From: Parvibaculum lavamentivorans DS-1 | GTDB taxonomy: Bacteria > Pseudomonadota > Alphaproteobacteria > Parvibaculales > Parvibaculaceae | DNA: 64,000 nt | Direction of reading: 5' to 3' | Assembly: GCF_000017565.1 (NCBI RefSeq) | Contig: NC_009719.1 | Coordinates: forward strand, 3,765,001-3,829,000 | Shown: piece by piece, positions 28,837 through 48,445 of the stretch | Position numbering within the stretch: the stretch's first letter is position 1 | Layout of the letters: each line of letters opens with the position of its first letter | Made by a program: the position numbers and the translations under genes | Notes under the pieces: generated by a model | Database searches by the model: none | Seen by the model: the letters and a program-made list of their open reading frames with translations, nothing else | What the model was told of the DNA's origin: nothing

Positions 28837-30017
28837 GCGACATTGACCACGACAACGCCGAACGGCTGGACCAATCAACGCCCGCCGTCGATGCATCATC
28901 GTCCATGCGCCTGCGGGCAGAACCTCCGCGCGTCACCCGGCTGTCGCGCAAAGTGCTCGCCGGCGTCGCTGCGGTTGCACTCGTCAGCATCGGCGGCTCT
29001 CTCATCTACGCGCTCCAGACCCGCGATCCCGGCAAGAGCGCCGACGAACTCTATTCAACCGACAACCGCACCACGGCCGACGGCCTGGCCGGCCTGCCAC
29101 GCGATTACACCGGCCCGGTCCTCGGCCCGGCGCTGCCTGGAGACCTCGGCCGCCCGATCGTCAGCGCGCAAAATCAGGGGCATCCTGTCGTGCCGCCCGC
29201 CATGGCGGCGCCGGGGCCTGATCCCGAGGAGCAACGTCGCCTAGCCGAATTGGAGGCCGCCCGCACCAGCCGCGTGTTTTTCCAGGCCGGTCCGGCCGCA
29301 ACGTCGGCGACCGCCGGCACGAATGTCCCGGGATTTCCCAGCGTGGGAACCGGCACACAACCTGGTGCCGAGACCGCTCAAGATCGACAACTCGCGTTCC
29401 TCAATGCTCCCGTCGACCGCCGTACCATTGCGGCCGACCGCATCATGGCACCAGCATCGCCCTATGTTCTCCAGGCGGGCGCGGTCATCTCCGCCGCCCT
29501 CATCACCGGCATCCGCTCCGATCTGCCTGGACAAATCACCGCGCAGGTGACGGAGAACATCTACGATAGTCCGACGGGGCGCATCCTCGTCATCCCACAG
29601 GGCACGCGGATCATCGGCCAGTACGACAATAGCGTCCAATACGGGCAGAGCCGCGTGCTTCTCGTCTGGAACAGGCTCATTCTCCCGAACGGCCGGTCCA
29701 TTGTGCTCGAACGACAACCCGGAGCCGATACCCAGGGCTATGCCGGTCTGGAAGACGGCGTCGATTACCATTGGTGGGATCTCGCCAAAGCGGCGGGGCT
29801 CTCGACGCTCCTGTCAGTCGGGTCCGAGCTTGCCATCGATGATCAGGACCGGCTCCTGCGCGCCATCCGCAATGGGGGCCAGGACACGATCAATGATGCC
29901 GGTCAGCAGATCGTTCGGCGCCAGCTCAACGTCGCGCCGACACTGACGATCCGGCCCGGCTTCCCTGTCCGCGTGATCGTCACCCGCGATCTCGTCCTCG
30001 AACCTTACGGAGGCTGA
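28833..30017 (+). CDS. trbI: TrbI, VirB10-like core complex protein
   Basis: A 394-residue VirB10-family protein. One membrane segment (VLAGVAAVALVSIGGSLIYAL, about residues 45-65), a proline-containing periplasmic linker, and the TrbI C-terminal domain beginning PYVLQAGAVISAALITGIRSDLPGQITAQVTENIYDS, with the antenna region in LLSVGSELA and the finish RPGFPVRVIVTRDLVL. It spans both membranes and senses ATPase activity. Overlaps trbG as ATGA. Confidence 0.95.
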   Translation: MSDIDHDNAERLDQSTPAVDASSSMRLRAEPPRVTRLSRKVLAGVAAVALVSIGGSLIYALQTRDPGKSADELYSTDNRTTADGLAGLPRDYTGPVLGPALPGDLGRPIVSAQNQGHPVVPPAMAAPGPDPEEQRRLAELEAARTSRVFFQAGPAATSATAGTNVPGFPSVGTGTQPGAETAQDRQLAFLNAPVDRRTIAADRIMAPASPYVLQAGAVISAALITGIRSDLPGQITAQVTENIYDSPTGRILVIPQGTRIIGQYDNSVQYGQSRVLLVWNRLILPNGRSIVLERQPGADTQGYAGLEDGVDYHWWDLAKAAGLSTLLSVGSELAIDDQDRLLRAIRNGGQDTINDAGQQIVRRQLNVAPTLTIRPGFPVRVIVTRDLVLEPYGG

Positions 30018-31146: not shown

Positions 31147-31404
31147 ACTCCCACCTGGACAATTTCCGGGCAGCCCGGCTTCGCCTCGGGTACACGAAGG
31201 CGGACTGGTCCTGATCAGCCATAGGCTGTCACCCAGGGCATGATGAGCGTATCCGGCGCCTCCATGCGCCATTACGCTCGCCTGAGCGGATCAACCGCTA
31301 TTGGCGATGACGAAAACCATCATCTTATCGCCTTTCTAGCTTGCCGATTCTTGCCAACTTATGCCAGTGTAACACAAAATAACTACCAACAAGCCGGCAA
31401 TCCC
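31147..31404. promoter_or_regulatory. Divergent LysR/BREX intergenic region with promoter and repeats
   Basis: The last 100 bases turn AT-rich. A plausible sigma-70-like promoter for the BREX operon is -35 TTGCCA (31351-31356) and -10 CAAAAT (31375-31380) with an 18-base spacer. TTGCC recurs at 31341 and 31351, and ATGCC follows at 31361, giving a 10-base, one-helical-turn period over the -35 box. This suits binding of a regulator to one face of the DNA, possibly the HTH protein encoded next. Confidence 0.4.
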
Positions 31405-31623
31405 ATGATCGAGCAGTCCGATGAAATCCTCACCATCGAGGAAGTCGCCACCTACCTGAAAGCAGGTCGGCGCACGGTCTATCGCCTTGCGGCCAATGGC
31501 CAGCTTCCGGCGTTCAAGCTAGGCGGTGTGTGGCGCTTCCGCCGCGCCGAGCTGGAACGATGGATCGCCGCACGCATCGGTGAGCAGGATGAAAAGCCCA
31601 AGCCGGACGAGGGGAGGCAATGA
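31405..31623 (+). CDS. Small helix-turn-helix (excisionase-family) regulator at head of BREX operon
   Basis: A 72-residue protein made almost only of one MerR/excisionase-type winged helix: ILTIEEVATYLKAGRRTVYRLAANGQLPAFKLGGVWRFRRAELERWIAAR. Its stop overlaps brxF as ATGA. Such a protein is too small to be an enzyme; it most likely binds the repeats in its own promoter and tunes the operon. It could alternatively serve as an excision factor of a formerly separate island, but no integrase is adjacent. Confidence 0.8.
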   Translation: MIEQSDEILTIEEVATYLKAGRRTVYRLAANGQLPAFKLGGVWRFRRAELERWIAARIGEQDEKPKPDEGRQ

Positions 31624-32117
31624 CCCATGCGTTCGCACTATCGGCAGAGGTGGCCAAGCTCCCTGCGCTTGAACGGCTCATCGAGGAAATCAACGATCTC
31701 CAGAGCAAGCTGATCCTGCTCGTCGGCAGCAGCGGCAAAACGCGCCTTCTGCGCGCTTTGGCGCGCCGGTTGAACGCCAAGCCTCTCAATGTCGGCGTGA
31801 CGCTCGGACGTCGCTTAGCGGTCACGCCCGTCTCTGATCGCGGTTTCTCGACGAACGAACTGCTCCGCGAAATCACTGATGGCGTGAGCGGTGACGCTCC
31901 GCTGCTGCTCGACAACCTCGAAGTGCTCTTTGAGCCTAGTCTGAAGGTCAATCCACTCAACGTCATCAAACTGCTGGCGCACTCACGTCCGGTCATCGCG
32001 GTATGGCCAGGTGAAATACACAACGATCGGCTGATTTACACCGGCATGGGACATCCCGAGCACCGCGACTACAGCCGCGACGGCGTCGTCGTCTTTGAAA
32101 CGGCGCAACGTCAATAA
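31620..32117 (+). CDS. brxF: BrxF, small P-loop ATPase of type 3 BREX
   Basis: A 165-residue protein with a P-loop GSSGKT at residues 36-41 and a Walker B-like strand APLLLDNLEVLF near residue 93. Its size, position directly before brxC, and the sequence ALERLIEEINDLQSKLILLVGSSGKTRLLRALA fit BrxF, the gene that distinguishes type 3 BREX from the others. Exact biochemical role unknown; probably a regulatory ATPase for the methylation or defence complex. Start overlaps the HTH gene. Confidence 0.82.
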   Translation: MTHAFALSAEVAKLPALERLIEEINDLQSKLILLVGSSGKTRLLRALARRLNAKPLNVGVTLGRRLAVTPVSDRGFSTNELLREITDGVSGDAPLLLDNLEVLFEPSLKVNPLNVIKLLAHSRPVIAVWPGEIHNDRLIYTGMGHPEHRDYSRDGVVVFETAQRQ

Positions 32118-32138: not shown

Positions 32139-35100
32139 ATGAAGTACAAAGATCTTATTCAATTCGAGCAAATCGAGTCGGTCGTTCAACTGCTCGACGC
32201 CGACCGTCCCAACGAAGCCAAGAAGCTCGTCTCGACGTTTGTCATCTCCGATGACATGGCCGAGCGCATTGCCAAGCTCATGGTGCCGCAGCTCGGCTTC
32301 GACGAATCTGTCGATCACAAGGGTGTGCTCATCGTCGGCAACTACGGCACCGGTAAATCGCACCTGATGTCGGTGCTATCGCTGGTGGCCGAAGACGCCG
32401 CCTATGCGCCGATGATCCGACACCCCAAAGTGGTGGATGCGGTCGCGTCCATCGCGGGGCGCTTCAAGGTGCTGCGCATCGAGGTCGGCGGTCTTGAAAT
32501 GCCGTTGCGCCAGATCATCACCCAGCAGATCGAACGATTCCTCAAGAAACTCGGCGTCGATTTCACGTTCCCAAGCGCTGATCAGGAACTGAACAACAAG
32601 GACTCCTTCGAGGAGATGATGGCTGCGTTCGGCGAGAAGTTCCCGGATCAGGGGCTTTTGCTCGTAGTGGACGAGTTCCTCGAATATCTGCAATCGCGTC
32701 GCGATCACGAACTGGTGCTCGACCTAGCCATCCTGCGTCAGATCGGCGAAGTCGCCAAGCATTTGAAATTCCGCTTCGTTGCGGGTGTGCAGGAAGCCAT
32801 CTTCGATAGCGGAAGGTTCCAGCACGTGGCCGACAGCATACGCCGCGTCAATGAACGCTTCACGCAAATCCTGATCGACCGCCAGGACGTGAGCTTCGTC
32901 GTATCCGCGCGTCTGCTCAAGAAGTCTGCCGACCAGCAGAATAAAATTCGCGAATATCTGAAGCCATTCGCCAAGTTCTACGGATCGATGAACGAGCGTA
33001 TGGACGAGTATGTCCGGCTATTTCCGGTCCACCCAGACTATCTCAAGACCTTCGAGCAGATTCACTTCACCGAAAAACGTGGCGCACTCAAGACCATCGA
33101 AGCCGCAATGCAGGCCATTCTCGATCAGGATGTACCAACTGATCGGCCACAACTCATCGCCTACGAAAGCTTCTGGAATACGGTCAAGAGCAACCAGGTG
33201 CTGCGCGCCGATCCCAACATCAAGGAGGTCTTGCGCGTCTCTGAAGTGCTGGAATCTCGCATCCAGCAGGCATTCACGCGGCCGACCTACAAACCGATGG
33301 CGCTGCGCGTCGTCAACGGCCTGGCTGTGCATCGCCTGACCACCGGCGGCGACATCCACATCCCGATTGGTCCTACCGCCGCAGAGCTTCGCGATTCCCT
33401 GTGCCTGTTCCAACCTGGTGTCGGGGATATGCCCGGCGAACCGGCCGAGAACCTGCTGTCGATGGTTCAGACCGTGATGCGCGAGGTGCTGAAGACCGTC
33501 AACGGCCAGTTCATCTCCAAGGCCGCCGACACCGAGCAGTATTACCTCGATCTCAAAAAAGACGTCGACTACGACGCCCAGATCGATAAGCGCGCCGAAG
33601 CATTGTCAGACGACGCTCTGGACCGCGCCTACTATAGCGCCGTCAAGACGTTGATGGAGTGCAGCGACGATCTTCGCTACCCCGGCTTCCAGATCTGGCA
33701 ATACCAGATCGAATGGCAGGAACACCGCGTCGAACGCCTGGGCTATTTGTTCTTCGGAGGCCCAAACGACCGTCCCACCGCGCAGCCCGAGCGTGATTTC
33801 TACATCTACTTCATTCAGCCCTTCGACAAGGGACAGCGCACCTACTCGCAGCAGCCGGATGAAGTGTTCTTTCGCTTGAAAGCGCTTGACGAGGGCTACA
33901 GGCGCCATCTGTCCCAATACGCTGCCTCGCTCGACCTGGGCTCCACTGCCAGTGGCGGTGCGAAGGCGGTCTATCAGTCCAAGGCGCAGGACGCCCTGCG
34001 CGCCATGAGCAAGTGGCTGCAAGAAAAGCAGCTGACCGCGTTTGAAGTCACCTATCAGGGCAAGGCCAAGACGCTGCAAGACTGGGCCAAAGGTGTCTCA
34101 CTGCGCGACCGCGCGCGCCTGGGGCCTGAGGAGAGGATCAACTTCCGCGACATTGTGAACATCGTCTCGGGCCTGGTTTTGTCCCAGCACTTCGCCGACA
34201 TCGCGCCCGAATATCCCAAGTTCCCGGTGCTCGTCACCGAGGCTAACCGCAAATCCCTGATTGCCAGTACGCTGCGCGCGCTGGCGGGCGGCACGCGCAC
34301 CAAGGACGCTACCGCGGTCCTCGATGCCTTGGAAATGCTCGACGGCGAACGTATCGACCCGGCGAGCTCCCGCTACGCTCAGGAAGTGTTGAACCGTCTC
34401 AAGGCCAAGGGCCATGGGCAGGTGCTCAACCGCAACGAACTCGTCGCCGGTGCGACCGATGTGGAGTATTTCTCCCCGGCCAAGCACCGGCTTGAGCCCG
34501 ATCTGCTGGTCGTTGTGCTGGGCGCACTGGCCTATTCCGGCGACATCGTGCTCGCGATCACCGGCGACAAGATCGACTCCGGCAAGCTCTCCTTGCTGGC
34601 AGAACGCTCGCTCGATGAACTCAAGCAGTTCAAGCACATCGAGGCGCCCAAGGAAATCAACCTCGCGGTGCTGCGTGCGCTGTTCGAGTTGCTCGATCTG
34701 CCATCTGGCCTGGCCCAGAAGGCCAGCCAAGGCGACACCGAACCGGTCATCGCATTGCAGGAAAAGATCAGCGCCCTGGTGCCGCGTGTGCTCAGGGCGG
34801 GCTCCGATCTCCAGCAGGGCAAGCTCGCCTTCTGGGGCCAGAACCTGCTGCGCGAGGAAGAAGCCAAGGATTGGTACGCGCGGCTGGATGCGCTCAAGAA
34901 ATTTACAGAATCCCTGTCTCCCTACAACACCGTCGGCAAGCTCAAAAACCTGCGCACCACGCAGGAAGACATCGACATCCAGAAGAAAAATCTGGACGTG
35001 CTCGCCGGCGTCGAGCGTTTGTTGGAACTGATCGGAGAATTGGGGGGCGCCGCATCCTATCTGTCGCAGGCGGAGATGATCTTGCAGCCCGGCCACGACT

Positions 35101-35879
35101 GGGTGAAGCAGGCCGAAGCCGCGCGCAAAGCCCTGTTCGATAAGCTGGCGGAGGATCGCACAGCGGAACGCGCCGCCGCCATCCTCGGCGAAGGCCGTCA
35201 GACTCTCGCCGGGCTCAAGAAGGATTACGTCACCGCCTATATCGCCAGCCACAGCAAAGCGCGGCTCGGCGTCGCCGAAGAGAAGACACGCAATGCACTG
35301 CGCCGCGACGACCGCTTGTTATCGTTGCGCGTGCTGGCAGGCGTCTCGCTGATGCCCACCAGTCAGCTCACCGGCTTCGAGGACGCGCTCAACGGCCTGA
35401 AAAGCTGCTCCGCGCTGGACGAGCCGACGCTGCTCAGAACGCCGGTATGCCCCCACTGCCAGTTCCGGCCATCCGCCGAACAACTGGAACTGCTGCCTGC
35501 CGCCAGTCGCCTGAACAAGCTGGACGACGATCTGGACCAGTTGCAGGCCAACTGGCAGCAGACATTGCTGGAGAATCTGGAAGACCCGTTCACGCAGGAC
35601 AGCCTGGGCCTGCTGCCGGCCGCATCGAAGGCTCTGATCGATGCCTTCCTCGCCGCGCGCAAGCTGCCGGAGCCTGTCACCACCGATTTCGCCAACGCCG
35701 TGCAGGAAGCACTGTCCGGGCTGGAGAAGATCACGGTCAAAGCAGACGAACTGCGTCAAGCCCTGCTGCAAGGAGGCTCGCCCGCCACGCCGGATGAACT
35801 GCGCAAGCGGTTCGACGCGCTCATCAGCGAGCGGGGCAAGGGCAAGGACGCAACCAAACTCCGGTTCGTGATCGAGTGA
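32139..35879 (+). CDS. brxC: BrxC/PglY, large BREX ATPase
   Basis: A 1246-residue AAA-type ATPase. Walker A GNYGTGKSHL is at residues 67-76 and Walker B VVDEFLEYL begins near residue 176. The long C-terminal part is helical with coiled coils and carries a CPHC motif near residue 1107. Length and the start KYKDLIQFEQIESVVQLLDAD fit the BrxC/PglY family, present in every BREX type and needed for both methylation and phage exclusion. A 21-base gap follows brxF; four bases separate it from the AlbA_2 gene. Confidence 0.9.
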   Translation: MKYKDLIQFEQIESVVQLLDADRPNEAKKLVSTFVISDDMAERIAKLMVPQLGFDESVDHKGVLIVGNYGTGKSHLMSVLSLVAEDAAYAPMIRHPKVVDAVASIAGRFKVLRIEVGGLEMPLRQIITQQIERFLKKLGVDFTFPSADQELNNKDSFEEMMAAFGEKFPDQGLLLVVDEFLEYLQSRRDHELVLDLAILRQIGEVAKHLKFRFVAGVQEAIFDSGRFQHVADSIRRVNERFTQILIDRQDVSFVVSARLLKKSADQQNKIREYLKPFAKFYGSMNERMDEYVRLFPVHPDYLKTFEQIHFTEKRGALKTIEAAMQAILDQDVPTDRPQLIAYESFWNTVKSNQVLRADPNIKEVLRVSEVLESRIQQAFTRPTYKPMALRVVNGLAVHRLTTGGDIHIPIGPTAAELRDSLCLFQPGVGDMPGEPAENLLSMVQTVMREVLKTVNGQFISKAADTEQYYLDLKKDVDYDAQIDKRAEALSDDALDRAYYSAVKTLMECSDDLRYPGFQIWQYQIEWQEHRVERLGYLFFGGPNDRPTAQPERDFYIYFIQPFDKGQRTYSQQPDEVFFRLKALDEGYRRHLSQYAASLDLGSTASGGAKAVYQSKAQDALRAMSKWLQEKQLTAFEVTYQGKAKTLQDWAKGVSLRDRARLGPEERINFRDIVNIVSGLVLSQHFADIAPEYPKFPVLVTEANRKSLIASTLRALAGGTRTKDATAVLDALEMLDGERIDPASSRYAQEVLNRLKAKGHGQVLNRNELVAGATDVEYFSPAKHRLEPDLLVVVLGALAYSGDIVLAITGDKIDSGKLSLLAERSLDELKQFKHIEAPKEINLAVLRALFELLDLPSGLAQKASQGDTEPVIALQEKISALVPRVLRAGSDLQQGKLAFWGQNLLREEEAKDWYARLDALKKFTESLSPYNTVGKLKNLRTTQEDIDIQKKNLDVLAGVERLLELIGELGGAASYLSQAEMILQPGHDWVKQAEAARKALFDKLAEDRTAERAAAILGEGRQTLAGLKKDYVTAYIASHSKARLGVAEEKTRNALRRDDRLLSLRVLAGVSLMPTSQLTGFEDALNGLKSCSALDEPTLLRTPVCPHCQFRPSAEQLELLPAASRLNKLDDDLDQLQANWQQTLLENLEDPFTQDSLGLLPAASKALIDAFLAARKLPEPVTTDFANAVQEALSGLEKITVKADELRQALLQGGSPATPDELRKRFDALISERGKGKDATKLRFVIE

Positions 35880-35883
35880 CGCC

Positions 35884-37746
35884 ATGACCAGAGACGACCT
35901 CGTCGCCGCGCTCCAATCCATCGAATGGAACGACATCGAATTCAAGGAAGCAGCCTGGGCTGTGCCCAAGGACGCGCTTTCGACTGTCAGCGCCTTCGCC
36001 AACACGGAAGGCGGGCACCTGGTGTTCGGCGTCAAGCAGGCCAACGGCACATTTACCGTCACCGGCGTGACCGATGCTGATAAAATACAAAACGACTTTC
36101 TGGGCCAAGTTCGAGATTCAAACAAAGTCAGCGTATTTTTGCCCATAGGCGGCACGGTTCACGACTTGGCCGAAGGCACAGTTCTGGCCTTTTATATCCC
36201 CGAAGCCGAGCGGCATCAGAAACCGGTCTATCTCGACGGCAATCCGAAAAAAGCTCACATTCGTCGTGGTGGGCGCGATGACACCTGCACAGGCGATGAG
36301 TTGCTGCGCTTCATTCGTGATGCGTCGAATATCCGCTACGACGCCGAAACGCTCGATGTGGATATTGGCCGGTGTTTCGACGAAGCCTCTGTGCGTTGGT
36401 ATCGTGCGCGCTTTGCCGCCAGCAACCCCGGCAAAGACACCGCTGCTGACGACATCACATTCCTGCGGAACTGGGGCTTTCTGGTCGAGCAAGGCGGCGT
36501 GCTGCGCCCTAGCCGCGCCGCCATTCTGGTGCTGGGCAGCGGTGAATATGTCCGGCAGGTACTGCCGCGCATGGTCACGGACGTACAACTCTACCGCAAT
36601 GCCAGCACTGAATATGATTCCACCGTCCGCTGGGCCGACCGCCTCTCGGTGGAGGACAACCTTATCAAGGCTTGGCAGGCCATTGTGGAGTTCTACTACC
36701 GCCACAGCGAGCGCCCCTTTGCCGTCGACGCGACCACCATGCGGCGTGACGACGACCCGCCCGACTACATCTCCTTCCGCGAAGCCGCGATCAATCTGCT
36801 GATCCATCAGGATTTCGGCGACACCACCCGTGTGCCGGTCATCCGCTTCTTCCGTGACCAGACCGAGTTCTTCAATCCTGGCGACGCCTTTGCCTCACGC
36901 GAGCAACTGCTCGATCCGGGCGATAAGGAGGTTCGCAACCCCAGCATCGTCAGCGCCTTCCGCCGCATCGGGCTGTCCGATCAGGGCGGCACCGGCGTGC
37001 GCGCCATCTTCGACGGCTGGCGCAAACTGGGCTACCTGCCGCCTGAGATCGAGAACCGCAGGGCCGAAAAAAGCTTCCGCCTGCGCTTGTGCAAGGTAAA
37101 GCTCATTACTGAAGCTCAGCTTCTTGCGCAGGCAAGCCTTGGCGCACACCTGTCCGAGCACGAGGCGGCGGTGTTTGCCTTCCTGCTGCGCAGCGGCCAG
37201 GTCGATGTAGCGGACATCAAGGCGCTGACTGGTCTTACTGGCGCGCAGGCGCTGGATCTGGCGCAGCGCCTGACTGTGCAAGTGCTGACGGAACCGCTCG
37301 GCGAGGCGGCCCACACATGGCGGCTGGTCCCTCACTTGCGCACCCGCTTCGCCGCCGAAACGGCTGAAGATACCACGGATCAACCGACTGGCGCGGAAAC
37401 GGTGGTGGCAGGCGCTACCGATCAAGTCACCGAACAAGTTGCACAGGAACAGCCCGGACTTGATCGGTCACTTGATCGGTTGACGGAGGTGCAGTGGCAT
37501 ATCGTCGGCTACGCCGATGTCCCGCGCTCGCTGGCCGAACTGATGGCTCACGCCGGCTATCGCCAACGACCGCACTTCGTTGCCACGCATATGGAGCCGC
37601 TCCTAGCCGGCGGCGTACTGCGCCCAACTATCCCGGACAAGCCGCGCTCGTCGCGGCAACGCTACGTGCTCACAGAAGCGGGCATCCAACTCAAGCTGCT
37701 GCACGAACAGGTCGCGGCCAAGCCGGACGAAGAAAATGGATATTGA
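35884..37746 (+). CDS. AlbA_2 (Schlafen-like) ATP-binding protein with HTH tail, BREX accessory
   Basis: A 620-residue protein. Residues 10-130 are an AlbA_2/Schlafen-type domain (IEFKEA with Glu19-x-Lys21, SAFANTEGGHLVFGVK at 36-51, then YIPEAERHQKPVYLDGNPKKAHIRRGGRD). Residues about 295-400 match the GHKL-like ATP-binding part of RecG-related regulators (SFREAAINLLIHQDF with Glu300 and Asn304, then PSIVSAFRRIGLSDQGGTGVRAIF). The C-terminus (about 420-600) has winged-helix-like repeats. Such proteins are often regulators or defence components; Schlafen domains can cut RNA. It is not part of the standard type 3 BREX set, and overlaps the next gene by 11 bases, so the two probably act together. 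Confidence 0.82.
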   Translation: MTRDDLVAALQSIEWNDIEFKEAAWAVPKDALSTVSAFANTEGGHLVFGVKQANGTFTVTGVTDADKIQNDFLGQVRDSNKVSVFLPIGGTVHDLAEGTVLAFYIPEAERHQKPVYLDGNPKKAHIRRGGRDDTCTGDELLRFIRDASNIRYDAETLDVDIGRCFDEASVRWYRARFAASNPGKDTAADDITFLRNWGFLVEQGGVLRPSRAAILVLGSGEYVRQVLPRMVTDVQLYRNASTEYDSTVRWADRLSVEDNLIKAWQAIVEFYYRHSERPFAVDATTMRRDDDPPDYISFREAAINLLIHQDFGDTTRVPVIRFFRDQTEFFNPGDAFASREQLLDPGDKEVRNPSIVSAFRRIGLSDQGGTGVRAIFDGWRKLGYLPPEIENRRAEKSFRLRLCKVKLITEAQLLAQASLGAHLSEHEAAVFAFLLRSGQVDVADIKALTGLTGAQALDLAQRLTVQVLTEPLGEAAHTWRLVPHLRTRFAAETAEDTTDQPTGAETVVAGATDQVTEQVAQEQPGLDRSLDRLTEVQWHIVGYADVPRSLAELMAHAGYRQRPHFVATHMEPLLAGGVLRPTIPDKPRSSRQRYVLTEAGIQLKLLHEQVAAKPDEENGY

Positions 37747-39625
37747 AACCTCCGGGGCGATCAGGCTGTTTTTCCCCAACCCGTCGTTGACCCTCGTCTA
37801 TTTTGAAGCGCTGGCCAATGCGCTGGATGCGGGCGCGACCGACGTGTCGATCGATATCGACGTTCAAGCTTTCGACAAGCCAGACACGTTGAAAATTACC
37901 GTTTCGGACAACGGCGATGGCTTCACCGACGAGAATTTTGAGCGGTTCCGGAAACTGCTGCGGCCAAGAGATAAATTCCACAAGGGCATCGGCCGCCTCG
38001 TCTTCCTCAACTATTTCGCTCGTGTGGATGTTGATAGCGCTCGCGAAAAATGGCGGAGAACCTTCACCTTCAAGGACGGCTTCGACGGCAATGCGCCGCT
38101 GCAGGCCGTTGCAGATCAACAGGAAGCGAAAACTTCGCTGATTTTCAGCGGCTTCGCCAAAGAGCGTGTTAAGTCATACGACGACCTGAAGCCGGATGCA
38201 CTTAAGCCGCTTCTGATTGAGCAATTTCTGCCAACGCTTGACGCGCGCAAGCGCGAAGGCAAGGCATTCAAGATCTCTATAAATCTGACGACTAACGAAA
38301 GTAACGCGCAAAAGGAGTTCTTCCCTCAGGCAGCCGAAATAACACCGGCTGATTTGCCGGCAATGACCAAGATTACCATCCAGGATGATACACTTGATGC
38401 CATCTCGACCATTGACATGCACTATCATATTGCCCCCGTATCGGGGAAAGGAAGTTCCCTCGTCGCCTTCAGCATCGACGGCCGAACGATACCGGCAAAC
38501 CTGATTCCCCCTTCGTCGTTTCCGCCGGGCTATCTCTGCGTCTTTCTCTTCGAGTCCGAACTCTTCCACTCGAATGCGGACAGCTCCCGGCAAAGGCTTG
38601 TTCTGCCCGAGGGAACGCCCGAGGCTCATCTTTTTCGCGTTCTGCGCCGCGAACTGGGCAAGGTTTTGGCGGAGAATATCCCGCAGATCACCGAGCGGAA
38701 TGAAAAAACCAAAGAAACATTTGAAGAGCAATTCCCGCATTTGCTCGGATTTTTTGAGGCCGACACCGTTGGCCTGATCGACCGGGACGATGCGCTGTCG
38801 ATCGCGCAACAGCGATTTTTCAAAGAACAGAAGGCAATACTTCAGTCCGAAAAACTGAGCGACGCCTCATATGAAAAATCATTGGAGATGTCTTCCCGAA
38901 CGCTGACCGAATATATCCTGTATCGGGATAAAATCATTCGGCGAATGAAGGAGATGACGGGCGGAAACGCGGAATCCGAAATACACAATCTGATCGTTCC
39001 CCGCTTCAAGGAGTATTCGCAAAGCTCCATGCCGTCGGAAGTTTACCAGAACAATGCCTGGTTGCTCGATGACAAGTTCATGGTTTTCAGGACCATTCTG
39101 AGCGAGAAGAGCATGGATGCCGTCATCAATGCCATACGCTTGGATGACGAAATCGTAGGAGACACAGGCCGGCCGGATATTGCGATGATCTTCTCGGCAG
39201 ACCCCAACGACACGACGCCGGTCGATGTCGTTGTAGTTGAGATCAAAAAGAAGACGGATGACGAGAAAGACAATTCCTACGCTGTAAATCAGCTTCTGGA
39301 CCGCGCCGGCAAGCTCGTTGCGCATTGTCCGAACATTCAGCGCGTTTGGTACTACGCGATTATGAACGTCAACGACACAATGGCCTTTCGCTTAAGGCAA
39401 CTTAAGTGGACGCCCTTTTTCTCGAAGGGCAGGGTTTATTATCAGGAATTCGAGACGCCACATCCTGATGGCCGCGTCATCCCGACACCGACCTTCGTGG
39501 TCTCTTTCGATGCGATCATCGCTGATGCCGAAGGCAGGAACCACACCTTCCTCGAAATCCTGCGGGAAGGCATGAAAAAATACGCTGACGAAAATGGTGA
39601 CAGCAAATCGTCTGGCGACGAATAA
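37736..39625 (+). CDS. GHKL (Hsp90/MORC-like) ATPase fused to PD-(D/E)XK-like nuclease, BREX accessory
   Basis: A 629-residue protein. The N-terminus is a GHKL ATPase: N-box EALANALD (Glu24, Asn28, Asp31), G1 box DNGDG (Asp58, Gly60, Gly62) and HKGIGRLVF at 82-90. The C-terminus has the pattern of a PD-(D/E)XK nuclease: RPDIAMIF (Asp481) and, 21 residues later, VVVVEIKKK (Glu502, Lys504), followed by a helix with QLL. The middle is helical. An ATP-gated clamp coupled to a nuclease would suit cutting of foreign DNA. Visibly less GC-rich than its neighbours. No name known to me; function is inferred from the motifs and its place between brxC and pglXI. Confidence 0.78.
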   Translation: MDIETSGAIRLFFPNPSLTLVYFEALANALDAGATDVSIDIDVQAFDKPDTLKITVSDNGDGFTDENFERFRKLLRPRDKFHKGIGRLVFLNYFARVDVDSAREKWRRTFTFKDGFDGNAPLQAVADQQEAKTSLIFSGFAKERVKSYDDLKPDALKPLLIEQFLPTLDARKREGKAFKISINLTTNESNAQKEFFPQAAEITPADLPAMTKITIQDDTLDAISTIDMHYHIAPVSGKGSSLVAFSIDGRTIPANLIPPSSFPPGYLCVFLFESELFHSNADSSRQRLVLPEGTPEAHLFRVLRRELGKVLAENIPQITERNEKTKETFEEQFPHLLGFFEADTVGLIDRDDALSIAQQRFFKEQKAILQSEKLSDASYEKSLEMSSRTLTEYILYRDKIIRRMKEMTGGNAESEIHNLIVPRFKEYSQSSMPSEVYQNNAWLLDDKFMVFRTILSEKSMDAVINAIRLDDEIVGDTGRPDIAMIFSADPNDTTPVDVVVVEIKKKTDDEKDNSYAVNQLLDRAGKLVAHCPNIQRVWYYAIMNVNDTMAFRLRQLKWTPFFSKGRVYYQEFETPHPDGRVIPTPTFVVSFDAIIADAEGRNHTFLEILREGMKKYADENGDSKSSGDE

Positions 39626-39642: not shown

Positions 39643-42405
39643 ATGAACGACCTACTGCAAAATCATCACAGCGGAACAAGTGGCCCGGTCGAATGCCTCG
39701 GCCAGACATTTGCCAGCGACGATGCGCGGCGCGCGCACTTCCTAACGCTGCTGGCCGAGAAGCTGCAAGACCCGACCTTCCGCAAGCAGGAGGGGTTTCC
39801 GAAGGGATCGGACGCGGCCATCCTCGCCATGTCCGACCCGCCATACTACACCGCTTGCCCGAACCCGTGGCTGGCGGAGTTCGTAGCGCATTACGGCAAG
39901 CCCTACGACCCGGCGGTGAAATACAGCCGCGAGCCGCTGGCGATCGACGTGAGCGTTGGCAAGACCGATGCCATCTATAAAGCGCACAGCTACCACACCA
40001 AGGTGCCGCACCTGGCCATCGTGCCGTCGATCCTGCACTACACCCAGCCGGGCGATGTGGTGCTGGACGGTTTTGCCGGTTCGGGCATGACCGGCGTGGC
40101 CGCGCAATGGTGCGGCACGGCCCCGGCCAGTTACCGGCACGACTTGGAGCTGACGTGGAAGAAGGAAGGCCGCACTGCCCCCAAATGGGGCGCTCGCCGC
40201 GCCGTGCTGAACGATCTTTCGCCTGCCGCTACTTTCATCGCCACCAACAACAATCAACCATTTGATGTCATTGGCTTTGCAAAAGCAGCGGAGACGTTGC
40301 TGCATGACGCAGAACGCGAAATCGGCTGGATGTATAAGACAAAGCACACAGACGGCACAGAAGCTCATATTGCATATGTCGTCTGGAGCGAAGTCTTCAT
40401 CTGCCGATCCTGCTCGGGAGAGACCGTATTCTTCAATGCAGCTTACGATCCAGTAGCAAACAAGGTCCGGGATAAAGTGACATGTTCTCATTGTGGGGCT
40501 GAATCCTCCAAAGAGAACATGGATTTGAAATTCGAGTCTTTTATGGATGCGCCGCATAATCGGGTAGATAAACGGCCGGAACGTGTTCCGGTCTTAATCA
40601 AGTATTCTATCGGACGATCTTCGTTCACCAAAACTCCAGATCAGAATGATCTGGCAATTCTTGACAAGATCTACAAGCTCAGCATCCCTCAAAATCTGCC
40701 GACCGTTGAGCTGCCCGATTGTCAGATGACGCGCGTTGGGCGAATGCGGACGACAAATACGGGCAGCATTCACCATATGTATTTGCCTAGGGCCGGTTAC
40801 GCTTTGTCCTATCTCTGGGAAAAAGCGAATAACTTGACCGACGGACGTTTGCGTAACGAAATCAAATATTGGCTAGACAGTCAGTTCACCAATTTGTCTA
40901 TACTTAATAGATACAGGCCAGAAGTTTCCTTCCCATACAATCCTCTCTCTGGTGTTTTTTACGTCCCCTCCTTAATTTCGGAGGCCGATCCATTCACGGC
41001 ATATAAAAACAAAATAAAGAGATTGACCTCAGCGTTTTCCGTGAGCCGTGCACAGGAAAATATGAGCATGACCTCGTGCGGGAGCACAACGAAATTGCCT
41101 CTCAATAACGAGAGCATTGACTATATTTTTACGGACCCACCGTTTGGAGAGAATATCTACTACGCCGACTTAAATATCCTTGTCGAATCTTGGCATCGCG
41201 TTCTTACTGATGCGAGCCCCGAGGCGATTGTTGATCGAGTGAGAGAAAAGGGAATCCCTGAGTATCAACATCTCATGCGCGCGTGCTTTTCCGAATACCA
41301 CCGTGTACTGAAGCCTGGCCGTTGGATGACGGTTGTTTTCTCAAACAGTCGCGCGTCGGTATGGAACGCTATTCAAGTAGCATTACAGCAGGTTGGATTT
41401 GTGGTTGCAGAGGTGACCGCCCTCGACAAAGTGCAGGGTAGTTTTCAGCAGGTCACTTCGCCAAATGTCGTGAAGCAGGACTTGGTGATTTCCGCCTACA
41501 AGCCCAATGGCGGGCTGGAAGATCGTTTCGTGAAGAGCGGTGCGACGGTAGATTCAGCGTGGGATTTTGTGCAGACCCATCTGCGGCATCTCTCCGTCAC
41601 GAAGGTTAAAGACGCCGAGCTGGAGTTCATCGTCGAGCGCGACCCGCGCCGCATCTACGACCGGCTGGTGGCCTGGTTCGTGCGCCATGACGCGCCCGTG
41701 CCGCTGTCCAGCGACGAGTTTCTTTCCGGCCTTCGCAACCGCTTCCCCGAACGCGACGGCATGGTCTTCCTGCCGGAGCAAGTGACGGAGTACGACAAGA
41801 AGCGTGCACAGACCGCGCAGGCGCCGCAGATGGAACTGTTCGTCTCCGACGAGCGCAGCGCTATCGACTGGGTGGCGGACTTCCTGAGAGCCCGGCCGTC
41901 CACCTATCAGGACATCCACCCGGAGTTCATCAGGCAACTGGGCGCCGGTTGGAAAAAGCACGAAACTCGACCGGAACTCTCGGCGCTTCTGGAAGCCAAC
42001 TTCCTGCGCTTCGACGGCGCGGGCGAGGTACCGAGCCAGATTCACCGCTATCTCTCGACCAACTACCACGACCTGCGCGGCCTGGAGAAAATCGATCCGC
42101 GCCTCAACGCCCGCGCGCAGGACCGCTGGTATGTGCCCGATCCGAACAAGGCGCAGGACCTGGAGAAGAAGCGCGAAAAGGCGCTGCTCAAGGAGTTCGA
42201 GACCTACAAGGCGTTCACCGGCCGCAAGATCAAGGAATCGCGGCTGGAAGTGCTGCGGGCAGGTTTTAACGCGGCGTGGGCGGTAAAGGATTACGCCACC
42301 ATCCTCGGCATCGCCCACAAGCTGCCGGAAGCAACCCTGCAAGAGGATGAGCGGCTGCTCACCCTCTATGACATGGCGCTGACGCGCACCGAAGACGGGG
42401 CGTAA
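39643..42405 (+). CDS. pglXI: PglXI, DUF1156-type adenine-specific DNA methyltransferase of type 3 BREX
   Basis: A 920-residue methylase. Motif IV-like DPPY is at residues 65-68, the SAM-binding motif I DGFAGSGMTG at 142-151, and a second DPPF at 498-501. A zinc ribbon (Cys254, Cys257, Cys281, Cys284) lies between them, in the part that should recognise the DNA target. The C-terminal 300 residues are helical and charged. The N-terminal and C-terminal parts are GC-rich like the neighbours, while roughly 40,240-41,500 is markedly more AT-rich, as if the recognition region had been exchanged. It should methylate an asymmetric motif in host DNA and mark it as self. Starts 17 bases after the GHKL gene. 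Confidence 0.88.
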   Translation: MNDLLQNHHSGTSGPVECLGQTFASDDARRAHFLTLLAEKLQDPTFRKQEGFPKGSDAAILAMSDPPYYTACPNPWLAEFVAHYGKPYDPAVKYSREPLAIDVSVGKTDAIYKAHSYHTKVPHLAIVPSILHYTQPGDVVLDGFAGSGMTGVAAQWCGTAPASYRHDLELTWKKEGRTAPKWGARRAVLNDLSPAATFIATNNNQPFDVIGFAKAAETLLHDAEREIGWMYKTKHTDGTEAHIAYVVWSEVFICRSCSGETVFFNAAYDPVANKVRDKVTCSHCGAESSKENMDLKFESFMDAPHNRVDKRPERVPVLIKYSIGRSSFTKTPDQNDLAILDKIYKLSIPQNLPTVELPDCQMTRVGRMRTTNTGSIHHMYLPRAGYALSYLWEKANNLTDGRLRNEIKYWLDSQFTNLSILNRYRPEVSFPYNPLSGVFYVPSLISEADPFTAYKNKIKRLTSAFSVSRAQENMSMTSCGSTTKLPLNNESIDYIFTDPPFGENIYYADLNILVESWHRVLTDASPEAIVDRVREKGIPEYQHLMRACFSEYHRVLKPGRWMTVVFSNSRASVWNAIQVALQQVGFVVAEVTALDKVQGSFQQVTSPNVVKQDLVISAYKPNGGLEDRFVKSGATVDSAWDFVQTHLRHLSVTKVKDAELEFIVERDPRRIYDRLVAWFVRHDAPVPLSSDEFLSGLRNRFPERDGMVFLPEQVTEYDKKRAQTAQAPQMELFVSDERSAIDWVADFLRARPSTYQDIHPEFIRQLGAGWKKHETRPELSALLEANFLRFDGAGEVPSQIHRYLSTNYHDLRGLEKIDPRLNARAQDRWYVPDPNKAQDLEKKREKALLKEFETYKAFTGRKIKESRLEVLRAGFNAAWAVKDYATILGIAHKLPEATLQEDERLLTLYDMALTRTEDGA

Positions 42406-42408
42406 TCC

Positions 42409-45234
42409 GTGACGGGGGGCGGCTTCGACATCGGCGATTGGTGCTGGCACACGCGGCAGGCTACGCCTTGCCGCGTGGTCGAGCGACTGGCGCTATGGGG
42501 TGAAGCGGCCTACCGTGTGTGGCTGCCCTCGAAAGACGCCGTGCTCCGCGCACGGGCGACGGAACTGGCGGTGCTTTCCAGCGTGCGGCCCACGGTGGGG
42601 CAGATTCTGCACGCCACGGCGGCGGCAAAATTGCAGGACGCGCTCGAAGACAACCTCCTGCTGGCGCCCATCCAATCCAGCGTCATTCCGTTGCCTCACC
42701 AGCTCTACGCGCTGAACCGTGCCGTCGGGCAGGACCGCATCCGCTACCTGCTCGCCGACGAAGTGGGTCTGGGCAAGACCATCGAGGCGGGCCTAGTGCT
42801 GCGCGAACTGAAACTGCGCGGTCGCGTCAAGCGCATCCTGGTGGTCGCACCCAAAGGCTTGGTGCGGCAATGGCAGGCGGAAATGCGCCAGCATTTCGGC
42901 GAGCCGCTCCACTTCGTAGATCCTTCATCGCTTGCGGCCTTGCGGCAATGGCGCGGGGACAGCGCGGAAGACAATGCGTGGCGGATGCACGACCAGGTAA
43001 TCTGCGCGCTGGATTCGGTGAAGCCGCTGGAATCGCGGCGTGGCTGGAGCCTGGACCAGATCCAGACCTACAACCGCGAACGCTTCGAGGATCTCGTGTC
43101 GGCGGCCTGGGATCTGGTCATCATCGACGAAGCACACCGCATGGGCGGCAGCACCGAACAGGTGGCGCGCTACAAGCTGGGCGCAGCGCTGGCGGAAGCC
43201 TCGCCCTATTTGTTGCTGCTGTCGGCCACGCCGCACCAGGGCAAGACCGACCAGTTCATGCGCCTCATGCAGTTGCTGGACCGGGACGCCTTCCCCGATG
43301 AAGGCAGCGTCAGCCACGAGCGCGTGCAGCCCTTTGTGATCCGCACCGAAAAGCGCGCTGCGATCAATGCCGAAGGCCAGCCGCTGTTCCGACCCCGGCT
43401 CACGCGCTTGCACGCGGTCGCCTGGCAGGCTCGGCACGCGGCGCAGCAGCAGTTGTACGAAGCCGTCACCGACTATGTGCGCCATGGCTACAACCAGGCT
43501 CTGGCGGCCAAGCAGCGCCATGTCGGCTTTCTGATGATCCTGATGCAGCGACTGGTGACATCCAGCACCGCCGCAATCCGCGCCACGCTGGAAAAGCGCC
43601 AGGCGGTGCTGGACACGCCGCAGACCCAAGCGCGCCTGTTCGACACGCTCAGCCCGGACGAATGGGCCGATCTCGACGGCGAAGCGCAGGTAGACCTGGC
43701 GCTGCAAGCCAATGGTCTGGAGCTGGAGAAGTCGGAGGTTGAGACGCTACTGGCGCTGGCGCGCTCCACCGAGGCCGCCGGGACGGACGCCAAGGCCGAA
43801 AGCCTGCTGGAGCTGATCTACAAGCTGCAACAGGAAGAAGGCGACCCGGCGCTGAAGGTGCTGGTGTTCACCGAGTTTGTGCCCACGCAGGCCATGCTGG
43901 CGGACTATCTGGAAAGCCGGGGCTTCACGGTCGCCACGCTCAACGGCGGCATGGACATGGAAGCCCGCACCCGGACTTTGCAGACTTTCGCAGGGGACGC
44001 TCGCGTGCTGATTTCCACCGACGCGGGCGGCGAAGGTCTGAACCTTCAATTCTGCCACGTCATCGTCAATTTCGACATGCCGTGGAACCCGATGCGCATT
44101 GAGCAGCGCATCGGCCGCGTGGATCGTATCGGTCAGAAGCATGTCGTGCGGGCGTTGAATTTCGTGCTGGAAGACACGGTGGAACACCGTGTCCGGCAGG
44201 TACTGGAGGAGAAGCTCGCCGTCATCGCCGAGGAGTTCGGCGTGGACAAGGCCGCGGACGTCATGGACTCGGCGGAAGTGGAGCCGGTGTTCGATGAACT
44301 GTTCGTGCAGAGCCTCCAGCATCCCGAAGCCATCGAGCGCGAATGCGACAGCGTGGTCTCCCAGTTGCGGACCACGCTGGCGGAATCGAACCGGAACAGC
44401 GATCTGCTGGCCGTGCCGCACGATCTCGATGCGGACCAGGCCCGCAAGTGGCGTGACCACCCGGCTCAATTCTGGCTGGAACGCGCCGTCGTCAACGGGC
44501 TGGCAGTACGCGGCGGATCGGCGACCCAAGATGGCAGCCTCTGGCACGTGCGCTGGGCTGATGGTGCCGAGACGCCACAGGCCTGCTTCGACGCTCGCGC
44601 GGCAGGCGAAAACCCGGCGGCTGAATGGCTGACGATGGAAGATCCGCGCGCGCGGGCGATCATCGGCGACGTGCCGCGCTTCGTTGCGGGCCAGCCTCTG
44701 CCGGTGATCCGGGTGACGGGCCTGCCCGACTCGGTCAACGGTATCTGGTCGCTGTGGGAGATCGGGCTGGCGGCGCCGGGTGCGAACCGCAAGCGCTTCC
44801 TGCCAGTCTTCATAAATGACGAAGGCCGCCCCTTTGTGCCTACCGCCAAGCGGGTTTGGGATTTGCTGCTGACGGAAACCGTATCCGTGCAGTCGGTGGC
44901 GGACGCGGAGGCTTCGGTGGGCTGGTTCAAGGCATCGTTCGCGGTGGCCGGCGCGCAGGGTGAAGCCCTGTTCGCGGCGCTGGCGGACGAACATCGCGCC
45001 CGTATCAAGGAAGAGCGAGATCGCGCCACCTACGCCTTCGACGTTCGCAATCAGGCCATTGGACGCATCGGTCTACCGGCCGTGCGCCAGTTCCGCCGCC
45101 GCCGTCTGCAATCCGAGCACGAGGCACGTCTGGCCGCGCTGGACGATATGCAATCCAGCGTGCCGGAGCTGAATGCCGTGGCGATGGTGCGGATTGACGC
45201 CGCAGCCGGCAAAACCAGCGAGCGTGCGTCATGA
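42409..45234 (+). CDS. brxHII: BrxHII, SNF2/DEAD-type helicase of type 3 BREX
   Basis: A 941-residue superfamily 2 helicase. Walker A is GLGKT at 120-124 within LADEVGLGKTIEAG, DEAH box at 240-243, the SATPHQGK motif III, and the C-terminal helicase motifs STDAGGEGLNLQ and RIGRVDR at 567-573. Position between the DUF1156 methylase and pglZ identifies it as the type 3 BREX helicase. The GTG start 4 bases after the methylase stop is the only reasonable one; coupling by re-initiation is likely because no clear ribosome site is visible. Overlaps pglZ as ATGA. Confidence 0.9.
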   Translation: MTGGGFDIGDWCWHTRQATPCRVVERLALWGEAAYRVWLPSKDAVLRARATELAVLSSVRPTVGQILHATAAAKLQDALEDNLLLAPIQSSVIPLPHQLYALNRAVGQDRIRYLLADEVGLGKTIEAGLVLRELKLRGRVKRILVVAPKGLVRQWQAEMRQHFGEPLHFVDPSSLAALRQWRGDSAEDNAWRMHDQVICALDSVKPLESRRGWSLDQIQTYNRERFEDLVSAAWDLVIIDEAHRMGGSTEQVARYKLGAALAEASPYLLLLSATPHQGKTDQFMRLMQLLDRDAFPDEGSVSHERVQPFVIRTEKRAAINAEGQPLFRPRLTRLHAVAWQARHAAQQQLYEAVTDYVRHGYNQALAAKQRHVGFLMILMQRLVTSSTAAIRATLEKRQAVLDTPQTQARLFDTLSPDEWADLDGEAQVDLALQANGLELEKSEVETLLALARSTEAAGTDAKAESLLELIYKLQQEEGDPALKVLVFTEFVPTQAMLADYLESRGFTVATLNGGMDMEARTRTLQTFAGDARVLISTDAGGEGLNLQFCHVIVNFDMPWNPMRIEQRIGRVDRIGQKHVVRALNFVLEDTVEHRVRQVLEEKLAVIAEEFGVDKAADVMDSAEVEPVFDELFVQSLQHPEAIERECDSVVSQLRTTLAESNRNSDLLAVPHDLDADQARKWRDHPAQFWLERAVVNGLAVRGGSATQDGSLWHVRWADGAETPQACFDARAAGENPAAEWLTMEDPRARAIIGDVPRFVAGQPLPVIRVTGLPDSVNGIWSLWEIGLAAPGANRKRFLPVFINDEGRPFVPTAKRVWDLLLTETVSVQSVADAEASVGWFKASFAVAGAQGEALFAALADEHRARIKEERDRATYAFDVRNQAIGRIGLPAVRQFRRRRLQSEHEARLAALDDMQSSVPELNAVAMVRIDAAAGKTSERAS

Positions 45235-47267
45235 GCCAATGGCATCAGCGCATTCTTGGCTCTTTCACGGCCGATCTTTCCCGGCTGTGGGTGGCCTGCG
45301 ATCCAGACGGCGTGCTGCTGGACGAGAAGCTGCTGGCCGAACTGCGCGCCCGTGGCTTCGAGGTGATGGGATACGACGATCCGTTCGGATTCCGCGCGGA
45401 GTACGAGGAACGGTATCGCGCAGCGTGGGATGGCAACGAGCAGCCGCCATCTCCGGCGCTAATCGTACATCTGCGGCACGACAACGCGAACGATCTGCCG
45501 TGGGACATCGTGCATAACGCCCGCCCTGCGGTACGGCTCAATCTTGCCGAATTGTTCCCCAAGCTGGCCTATAGCGCGGTCCGGCAGGTGGAACCGGAAC
45601 GATTGGAAATCCTGTTCGACGCCCATCAGACCGAGTTGCAGTCGGCGCGCGGTGAAAGCGAGTCGAAGGACTTCATTCTCGAACACGTCTATCAGTTGAC
45701 GCCGCGATCTATCCGCGCGCCCGTGGACTTCTGGCGCGAAGTGCTGCGACTGCACTTTGCCGGTCGCGCTTTGCCGGAGCCGTTCGCCGAGCATGTGGCG
45801 GCCATCCTGCGCGGCAGAGGTTTACTCGTCGGCCACGCGGTTGCGGAGTGGCTGTCATCCAGGAGCGCGCTTCTGCGCGTGGTGCAGGACGCCTGGTATC
45901 TCTATCTGGAAAAGCTGAAACTGGAAGGCAGGCGTATGTCCGACCCCGATCCGCCGCCCTTTGGCGTAGGCGAGATCGGCACAGCGATTGAGATTCCCTT
46001 CGATCACACCGACGTGCGCACCATCGTAGACTCGTTGTTCCTCGACGGTAGCTTGCATCCGCTGGCGGTATCCGACGTTCCCACCGCCGTGCCTGGCTGG
46101 ATCAAAGCAGGCATCGTCGAGGATGTTTGGTCGCAATTCGCGCTGGCGGAAAAAGGCATCGAGGCGCTTGCCACAGCGGTGCCGGAAGCGGACGCCCCGC
46201 ACAAGTTCTGGGGCGACTTCGCAAGACGCTATGGCGAGATGCTGAGCCGGGTTCATGAATTGCCCGGCAAGGATGCCGGTGAAAGGATGGTCGCGATCCG
46301 GGAGCGCTTCAAGGCGATCCAGGCGCTGACCGACGAACGGTTGCAGGCGTGGATTGCCGCCGGCCACTACGCCGACCTGATCCTGCAACCGACGATCAAA
46401 GGCCCGGTGATGGTGCATCACGTTCCGCGTTTCCTGCGGCAGCGCCGTAGTGCGGGCGAAGCCAAGGTGGCGCTGCTAGTGTTCGACGGGTTGGCCTTCG
46501 ATCAATGGGTACAGATCAGGGAACACCTGATCGCCAACCAGCAGCCTTTGGCATTCGACGAGAGCACGGCTTTCGCGTGGTTGCCCACGGTGACGTCGGT
46601 ATCCCGTCAGGCGCTGTTCTCGGGCCTCCGGCCACGCGAGTTTGACGATTCGATAGACCACACCAACAAGGAAGAAGCCTTGTGGAAGGCGTTTTGGCAA
46701 AACGAAGGCGGTATTGCGTCCAGCGAGGTGATATACCAGCGCGCACTGCATCAGGTCGAGCAACTGGACGCCCTGGAAGCCGACATTGCGAGCCGCAAGC
46801 CCAAAGTCTTGGGGCTGGTAATCGATGAGGTGGATGAACGGCTACACAAAGAGCGCTCCAAGGAAGATGTAGCGCTGTGGATCGGGCGCTGGCTCGGCTC
46901 CGGTTTTGTCGAGCGCCTGTTTTCTTTCCTGCTGAGCGAAGGTTTCAGCATCTACGTCACCGCGGATCACGGCAATGTCGATGCTGTCGGCATAGGCCGG
47001 CCCAATCAGGGAGTGATCGCGGAAACACGTGGCGAGCGGGTGCGGGTTTATCGTAGCGATCCGTTGCGCGCCGAGTCCGCGATGGCCTACCCGGGCACGG
47101 TCGCCTTGGACATCGCCGGGTTGCCAGCGAACTTCAAACCTCTCTTCGCTGGCGGGCGCACTGCCTTCGTTCCGAACGGTGATCAGGTGGTCGTCCACGG
47201 CGGCGTGTCGGTCGAGGAACTGGTCGTCCCCTTCGTGAGGGTCTCAGATGTGAATGGAGCTGGGTGA
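45231..47267 (+). CDS. pglZ: PglZ, alkaline-phosphatase-superfamily BREX protein
   Basis: A 678-residue protein. The C-terminal PglZ domain shows the metal-binding layout of the alkaline phosphatase superfamily: LLVFDGLAFDQW (Asp419), TVTSVSRQALFSG about 50 residues on, and the late YVTADHGNVD (Asp579, His580). The N-terminal half is helical and less conserved. PglZ is a core part of all BREX types; its substrate is unsettled. Overlaps the helicase gene by four bases and is followed by brxA after seven. Confidence 0.92.
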   Translation: MSQWHQRILGSFTADLSRLWVACDPDGVLLDEKLLAELRARGFEVMGYDDPFGFRAEYEERYRAAWDGNEQPPSPALIVHLRHDNANDLPWDIVHNARPAVRLNLAELFPKLAYSAVRQVEPERLEILFDAHQTELQSARGESESKDFILEHVYQLTPRSIRAPVDFWREVLRLHFAGRALPEPFAEHVAAILRGRGLLVGHAVAEWLSSRSALLRVVQDAWYLYLEKLKLEGRRMSDPDPPPFGVGEIGTAIEIPFDHTDVRTIVDSLFLDGSLHPLAVSDVPTAVPGWIKAGIVEDVWSQFALAEKGIEALATAVPEADAPHKFWGDFARRYGEMLSRVHELPGKDAGERMVAIRERFKAIQALTDERLQAWIAAGHYADLILQPTIKGPVMVHHVPRFLRQRRSAGEAKVALLVFDGLAFDQWVQIREHLIANQQPLAFDESTAFAWLPTVTSVSRQALFSGLRPREFDDSIDHTNKEEALWKAFWQNEGGIASSEVIYQRALHQVEQLDALEADIASRKPKVLGLVIDEVDERLHKERSKEDVALWIGRWLGSGFVERLFSFLLSEGFSIYVTADHGNVDAVGIGRPNQGVIAETRGERVRVYRSDPLRAESAMAYPGTVALDIAGLPANFKPLFAGGRTAFVPNGDQVVVHGGVSVEELVVPFVRVSDVNGAG

Positions 47268-48167: not shown

Positions 48168-48445
48168 AGCCAGCCCGAGCAATCGCGAAACGTACGATCC
48201 GACGGCATGAACTTCGGGAAATCGTACCTCTCGCCGACACAACGATCTATGACATGGAACAGCGCGGCGAATTTCCTCAGCGCTTCTACCTCACCTCCCG
48301 CTGCGTGGTTTGGGATCTTGGAGAGGTCGAAGCCTGGCTCGATGACCGGCGCCGGGCTTCACGAGCCAAGGCCGTGAAGCGTGCACCTGTTCCCGACGTA
48401 CAGCTCCGCAAGACGCGGCCTGTCAGGCATCAAACTCGGGCGTAA
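48161..48445 (+). CDS. alpA: AlpA-family regulator/excisionase
   Basis: A 94-residue protein with the AlpA/Phage_AlpA helix-turn-helix: IRRHELREIVPLADTTIYDMEQRGEFPQRFYLTSRCVVWDLGEVEAWLDDRRRAS. Proteins of this family act as activators of integrase genes or as excisionases. It is convergent with the integrase, with 23 bases of tail-to-tail overlap. The ATG at 48161 has AAGGA eight bases upstream and is preferred over the in-frame ATG at 48146, which lacks a ribosome site. Confidence 0.85.
   Translation: MAQPARAIAKRTIRRHELREIVPLADTTIYDMEQRGEFPQRFYLTSRCVVWDLGEVEAWLDDRRRASRAKAVKRAPVPDVQLRKTRPVRHQTRA

Follow-up and report, generated by a model that had tools for sequence, protein, structure and literature searches.

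We analyzed a 64,000-nucleotide stretch of Parvibaculum lavamentivorans DS-1 (contig NC_009719.1, positions 3,765,001 to 3,829,000 of the forward strand; hereafter the window) that contains a complete type 3 BREX (bacteriophage exclusion) operon with two additional genes between brxC and pglXI. The first (gene A, 35884 to 37746, forward strand) encodes a protein of 620 amino acids (aa) with SLFN_AlbA_2, HATPase_c_4 and winged-helix domains (Pfam), and the second (gene B, 37736 to 39625, forward strand) encodes a 629-aa protein with a GHKL ATPase (Pfam HATPase_c) and, judged by its motifs, a C-terminal PD-(D/E)xK-type domain. The best explanation of the data is that genes A and B are exchangeable cargo at a recurrent insertion site of type 3 BREX, the brxC|pglXI junction. 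Genomes with gene B nearly always keep it inside a defence operon.

With gene B as the sole query, 18 close loci were recovered from 85,000 species genomes, which disposes of a random insertion in a single genome, one of the outcomes by which the original prediction would have been refuted. Seventeen of them are informative (L044 is cut off at a contig end), and type 3 BREX accounts for 15 of the 17, in hosts that include Rhizobiales, Acidocella, Zavarzinia, Achromobacter, Burkholderiaceae, Diaphorobacter, Pseudomonas, Zobellella and a Lysobacterales metagenome-assembled genome, spread over Alpha-, Beta- and Gammaproteobacteria. The other two copies also stand beside defence genes: L040 has gene B 2 bases after a type ISP restriction enzyme (Mrr_cat_2, ResIII, ISP_coupler, Type_ISP_C), and L042 has it directly behind gajA-gajB (Gabija). 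Gene B is rare (among 387 genomes of the class, a close copy was found in one genome besides the window's own, and none was found among 268 genomes), and the defence type that holds most of its loci is carried by only ~2% of genomes; a gene this rare, with 15 of 17 loci in type 3 BREX and the rest beside other defence systems, is not in this neighbourhood by chance. No copy was found in viral contigs and phage records, and plasmids gave one remote match alone (21% coverage). Ahead of the type ISP enzyme and gene B, L040 also carries a gene of 480 aa (3491 to 4933) with a weak match to PDC-M36A, a candidate defence family.

The view from the junction was obtained with PglXI as the query, in 16 independent type 3 BREX loci whose brxC|pglXI junction could be read. 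Eight of these hold A-type genes (six clear homologues and two remote SLFN_AlbA_2 + HATPase_c_4 proteins), and one of the six with a clear gene A (G554, the Zavarzinia genome) holds gene B as well, the only junction of the 16 to do so. The remaining junctions are direct or hold other genes, e.g., an ABC-type ATPase with a 217-aa partner. The original prediction took a direct step from brxC to pglXI as the type 3 standard; such a junction, direct or nearly so, is indeed seen in L070, L073, L081 and L082, but interruption is common, so a direct brxC-pglXI order is not a strict criterion of type 3 BREX. Among the direct cases, L082 (Enterococcus faecium plasmid pP47-180) has a shortened pglZ, and its operon lacks the BrxHII helicase gene.

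In the window the direct order is replaced by brxC-A-B-pglXI, with intact reading frames of both genes, a gap of 4 bases between brxC and gene A, an overlap of 11 bases between genes A and B (ATGGATATTGA), and a gap of 17 bases between gene B and pglXI, just as originally predicted. All six core genes lie in one operon on the forward strand (PADLOC, NCBIfam and Pfam): brxF (31620 to 32117; NF033453, BREX_3_BrxF, 150 bits, cut-off 50), brxC (32139 to 35879; a DUF6079 P-loop protein, PADLOC BrxC 1876 bits, Pfam DUF6079 1878 bits), the adenine methyltransferase gene pglXI (39643 to 42405; PADLOC PglXI 1392 bits), a BrxHII-type SWI2/SNF2 helicase gene, brxHII (42409 to 45234; PADLOC BrxHI|BrxHII 1493 bits), type 3 pglZ (45231 to 47267; NF033449, BREX_PglZ_3, 773 bits, cut-off 250) and brxA (47275 to 47997; PADLOC BrxA 292 bits). 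A scan for promoter- and terminator-like signals across the operon gave no excess, and brxC, A, B and pglXI are probably, though not necessarily as the original prediction had it, made as one transcript.

The arrangement of the cargo varies among loci. Most gene B loci have the order brxC-A-B-pglXI, and the 11-base overlap recurs at most loci with this A-B order; in L037, L038 and L041 (Pseudomonas/Zobellella) the order is brxC-B-A-pglXI. Gene A occurs without gene B in many type 3 BREX operons (L045, L050, L072, L079 and L080), and gene B without an adjacent gene A in L036, L040 and L042. In L036, gene B stands between an HEC-01/PARIS-like pair and a PD-T7-3-like gene, and gene A follows pglXI; an HEC-01/PARIS-like pair precedes gene A in L029 and L043, and L038 has a pair of ABC and PIN genes (PDC-M07); the brxC|pglXI junction also accepts such pairs. 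Separate occurrence and reversed order together reject an obligate A-B pair, so the original prediction's treatment of the two genes as a unit does not hold.

Sequence divergence also differs between gene B and its host operon. For L034 and L037 the identity is 88% in gene B and 70% in brxC; for L029 and L043 it is 85% in gene B and 95% in brxC. The brxC clade joining the window's locus with L043 was rejected by the gene B data (approximately unbiased test, p-AU = 0.004), and the gene B clade joining the window's locus with L027 was rejected by the brxC data (p-AU = 2e-5); broader whole-clade topology tests between gene B and brxC were not significant (p-AU = 0.23 and 0.19).

A second insertion site of type 3 BREX was observed at pglXI|brxHII, with varied cargo, e.g., ABC/OLD-type ATPase genes with partners (L027, L047, L048, L049, L051, L073, L074, L075 and L076); L027 has a pair of ABC and nuclease-like genes (HEC-02) between pglXI and the helicase gene. 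Both junctions appear to be cargo sites that could be mined for more defence genes. The pglXI gene itself is only 70-77% identical among relatives of the window in which brxC and the helicase are ~95% identical, and 72% identical between L037 and L038, the other genes of which are 98-99% identical; the pattern suggests that the target-recognition part of pglXI may have been exchanged. L046 and L047, in one genome (contig C27), represent a type 3 BREX with two pglXI genes, one before and one after brxC.

The N-terminal part of gene B belongs to the GHKL ATPases (HATPase_c, 2e-7, above the Pfam cut-off). It carries the N-box ExxxNxxDA, DxGxG and GxG of that family, with E24/N28/D31, D58xG60xG62 and K83G84xG86 invariant in 18 homologues, and the N-terminal structure model matches SMCHD1, GyrB/ParE, MutL and Hsp90 (E ~1e-10 to 1e-9). 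A C-terminal RPD(481)...E502-x-K504 has D481, E502 and K504 invariant in the same number of homologues, and the motifs remain invariant down to 56% identity. In profile comparison, gene B aligns over its full length with distant standalone and restriction-modification-linked GHKL nucleases (99.95% probability), with D481, E502 and K504 aligned to the RPD...EFK of these distant homologues, one of which adjoins an MmeI-type methyltransferase, a helicase and a T5orf172 protein, much as described for paraMORCs in the passages cited here from PMC2292703. The best chains for the C-terminal model after realignment are the PD-(D/E)xK nucleases McrC (Z = 6.1) and Can2 (Z = 5.9). Foldseek with the same model returned no match at E < 0.001, and a PDB sequence search with gene B returned weak MutL/PMS2 matches and none other. 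The C-terminal domain is thus predicted to be PD-(D/E)xK-type from its motif, its distant homologues and a model of modest confidence.

The original description of gene A as an AlbA_2/Schlafen-type ATP-binding protein was confirmed by Pfam: SLFN_AlbA_2 (PF04326, 4e-16; 60.0 bits, cut-off 25.3), HATPase_c_4 (8e-12) and a Fic-like_C winged helix (8e-11), and its profile matches structures of the mammalian Schlafen proteins SLFN5, SLFN11 and SLFN14. Rat SLFN13 requires a carboxylate triad, E205, E210 and D248 (PMC5862951). E14, E19 and K21 of gene A are invariant among 16 homologues; residue 52 is Gln in the window and Glu in several homologues, and alignment to the SLFN5 hidden Markov model, together with spacing, places Gln52 at the probable counterpart of D248. 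With Gln at the probable place of the third acid, ribonuclease (RNase) activity of this copy is doubtful and must be regarded as uncertain, and a role in regulation or sensing has roughly the same likelihood as RNA cleavage. Gene A would bind ATP and sense nucleic acids, and would either abort infection by cutting RNA or serve as a sensor and regulator of the operon. That its main task is to regulate transcription or assembly of the BREX operon, and not to act as an RNase, is close to an even call and falls slightly on the doubtful side: the C-terminal winged helix and the alignment of the third carboxylate to Gln52 point that way, against which stand the two essential glutamates (E14 and E19), invariant in all homologues, and the acid kept at position 52 in other members.

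For the pair as a whole we consider it fairly probable that gene B is an ATP-gated, DNA-clamping nuclease acting as a backup effector, with gene A as a nucleic-acid-sensing accessory, either RNase or regulator. Like MutL, gyrase B and VcSduA, gene B would form a homodimer of GHKL ATPase-transducer subunits, in which ATP binding closes the dimer and clamps phage DNA; closure would bring both C-terminal PD-(D/E)xK domains onto the DNA, which would then be cut. It would probably be triggered by DNA structures specific to infection (nicks, ends or stalled intermediates, for example). BREX itself (PglZ and the helicase) would create some of these structures, which would make gene B a second-line, semi-autonomous effector reinforcing BREX. 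That gene B is concentrated in type 3 BREX speaks for the BREX link, its copies beside Gabija and the type ISP enzyme speak for semi-autonomy, and its recurrence in BREX and beside these two other systems gives it the look of a portable, second-line defence. The genes are a recurrent and selected part of type 3 BREX, and the original prediction of an added effector arm survives as the best reading; its other part, destruction of RNA by gene A, is undercut by Gln52. The means by which BREX stops phages, and the nuclease involved, have long been in question, and gene B offers a small, testable candidate for an add-on restriction arm.

Several points weigh against gene B as a backup effector nuclease of BREX. 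It is missing from 15 of the 16 sampled type 3 junctions, so BREX works without it, and its 15 type 3 BREX loci represent only about four brxC groups. In the original designation as a GHKL ATPase-nuclease, the GHKL half is secured by Pfam, but the PD-(D/E)XK half has no Pfam match and its domain model is moderate (mean pLDDT, the predicted local distance difference test score, of 63; Z < 8). In favour of the reading, gene B is under strong purifying selection, with a median ratio of nonsynonymous to synonymous substitution rates (dN/dS) of 0.043, at or below that of the core BREX genes, although dS was saturated in half of the pairs behind this value.

Gene B might instead be a fully autonomous one-gene defence, functionally unconnected with BREX, that rides in the BREX transcript only to be expressed and transferred. 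The copies behind Gabija and the type ISP enzyme, the mutual rejection of clades by the gene B and brxC trees, the 88% identity of gene B across operons with brxC at 70%, and the ability of VcSduA-like proteins to function alone (PMC12137116) would all follow, and we regard this account as possible, if rather unlikely: a free agent should leave more solitary copies, and would hardly place 15 of 17 loci in one defence type found in ~2% of genomes. Gene B could also be an effector coupled to type 3 BREX, its ATP-driven DNA clamp being switched on when BREX recognizes foreign DNA (by PglZ nicking or by a complex with a stalled helicase). We hold this to be unlikely; if true, these operons would add to BREX a restriction arm dedicated to cutting both DNA strands, and this nuclease would be pluggable into Gabija and type ISP systems.

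It is more improbable still that gene B is a licensed restriction nuclease that cuts DNA lacking PglXI methylation, which would make the operon a true restriction-modification system. Gene B does lie immediately ahead of pglXI in most loci, one of the copies outside BREX stands behind a restriction-modification enzyme, the distant homologue adjoins an MmeI-type methyltransferase and a helicase, and restriction-modification operons with GHKL nucleases are on record in the cited passages of PMC2292703. However, the Gabija-adjacent copy (L042) has no methyltransferase in its system, gene B is absent from most type 3 BREX operons, and pglXI is 70-76% identical among the same loci in which gene B is 88-96% identical, a poor fit to a matched methylase-nuclease pair. 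Least probable, indeed very improbable, is that genes A and B were inserted together as one two-gene unit, toxin-antitoxin-like or sensor-effector. The 11-base overlap in the window and in most A-B-order loci is what such a unit would show, but its obligate form is largely refuted by the eight loci with gene A without B or gene B without adjacent A and by the three with reversed order.

Parts of this picture are already in the literature. The main text of Rakesh and Krishnan (2026; PMC12839542) describes a broad set of auxiliary or backup nucleases between core BREX genes, reports genes that combine Schlafen, minimal histidine kinase and winged helix-turn-helix parts and that accompany BREX and related loci (at least 1017 taxa), and cites PglZ nicking in type 1 BREX. 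These BREX auxiliary effectors resemble the present case in their nucleases embedded among core BREX genes, a Schlafen-type gene and PARIS-like pairs. That BREX recruits auxiliary nucleases, including a Schlafen-type gene, is therefore already published; the original claim of an undescribed system is not supported, and its premise of a BREX without a known nuclease is outdated in view of the PglZ nicking. The same main text, in contrast, names no GHKL/MutL/gyrase-type ATPase fusion like gene B, although gene B may be counted there under 'REases (restriction endonucleases) with variable N-terminal sensory modules (Shedu)'. What is new relative to that main text is the GHKL nuclease as recurrent type 3 BREX cargo.

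The closest tested protein to gene B is VcSduA (Shedu type I-D; paraMORC3), a single-gene effector with a GHKL ATPase, a middle transducer and a C-terminal PD-(D/E)xK domain, which gives phage protection and requires both its ATPase and its nuclease residues (PMC12137116). Gene B has the Shedu type I-D/paraMORC3 architecture of an N-terminal GHKL ATPase and a C-terminal nuclease-type domain; it differs in lying mostly inside BREX, whereas VcSduA was shown to act alone. By sequence gene B was rejected as Shedu, with no SduA_C (PF14082, DUF4263) match to E = 10 and no PADLOC match, and its profile comparison with Shedu was weak. The paraMORCs of Iyer, Abhiman and Aravind (2008; PMC2292703) are GHKL and S5-type modules linked or fused to nucleases beside superfamily II helicases and restriction-modification genes; they share with gene B a GHKL module with a nuclease beside defence genes, but the cited passages describe no type 3 BREX association for its subfamily.

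The operon is carried by a 61,265-bp integrative conjugative element that covers positions 1 to 50006 of the window (genome 3753742 to 3815006; its left end precedes the window by 11,258 bases). The other copy, at genome 1302562 to 1363826, has the opposite orientation, and BLAST of the two copies showed one mismatch in 61,265 bases, within the attachment (att) core. Each cell therefore has two full BREX operons, one in each copy, and gene B has a second, identical genomic copy. A tyrosine integrase (48423 to 49751, reverse strand; Phage_integrase and Arm-DNA-bind_3) lies near the right end; together with a relaxase (16275 to 18029), TraG (18056 to 20047), a TrbB-type ATPase (20670 to 21653), VirB8/TrbF (27170 to 27859) and TrbI (28833 to 30017), it identifies the element as Trb-type conjugative. 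Integrase, relaxase, type IV secretion system, defined ends and evidence of movement (the two copies) are all present, as in an integrative conjugative element. The flank of one copy encodes TSKPPGTIEWE-stop on the reverse strand, which we take to be the 3' end of guaA, where that copy would end; the window's copy looks like one at a secondary site. An integrase 87-88% identical to the window's was found in two loci with the same BREX, with trbG/trbI upstream in one.

At its head, ahead of brxF, the operon has a small HTH_17/excisionase-type helix-turn-helix regulator (31240 to 31623, forward strand; HTH_17, 1e-18), and a helix-turn-helix regulator is kept in this place in most relatives. Its product resembles MAD1, a protein of the MADS defence system, and scores slightly below the family cut-off (NF047737, 76.2 bits, cut-off 80).

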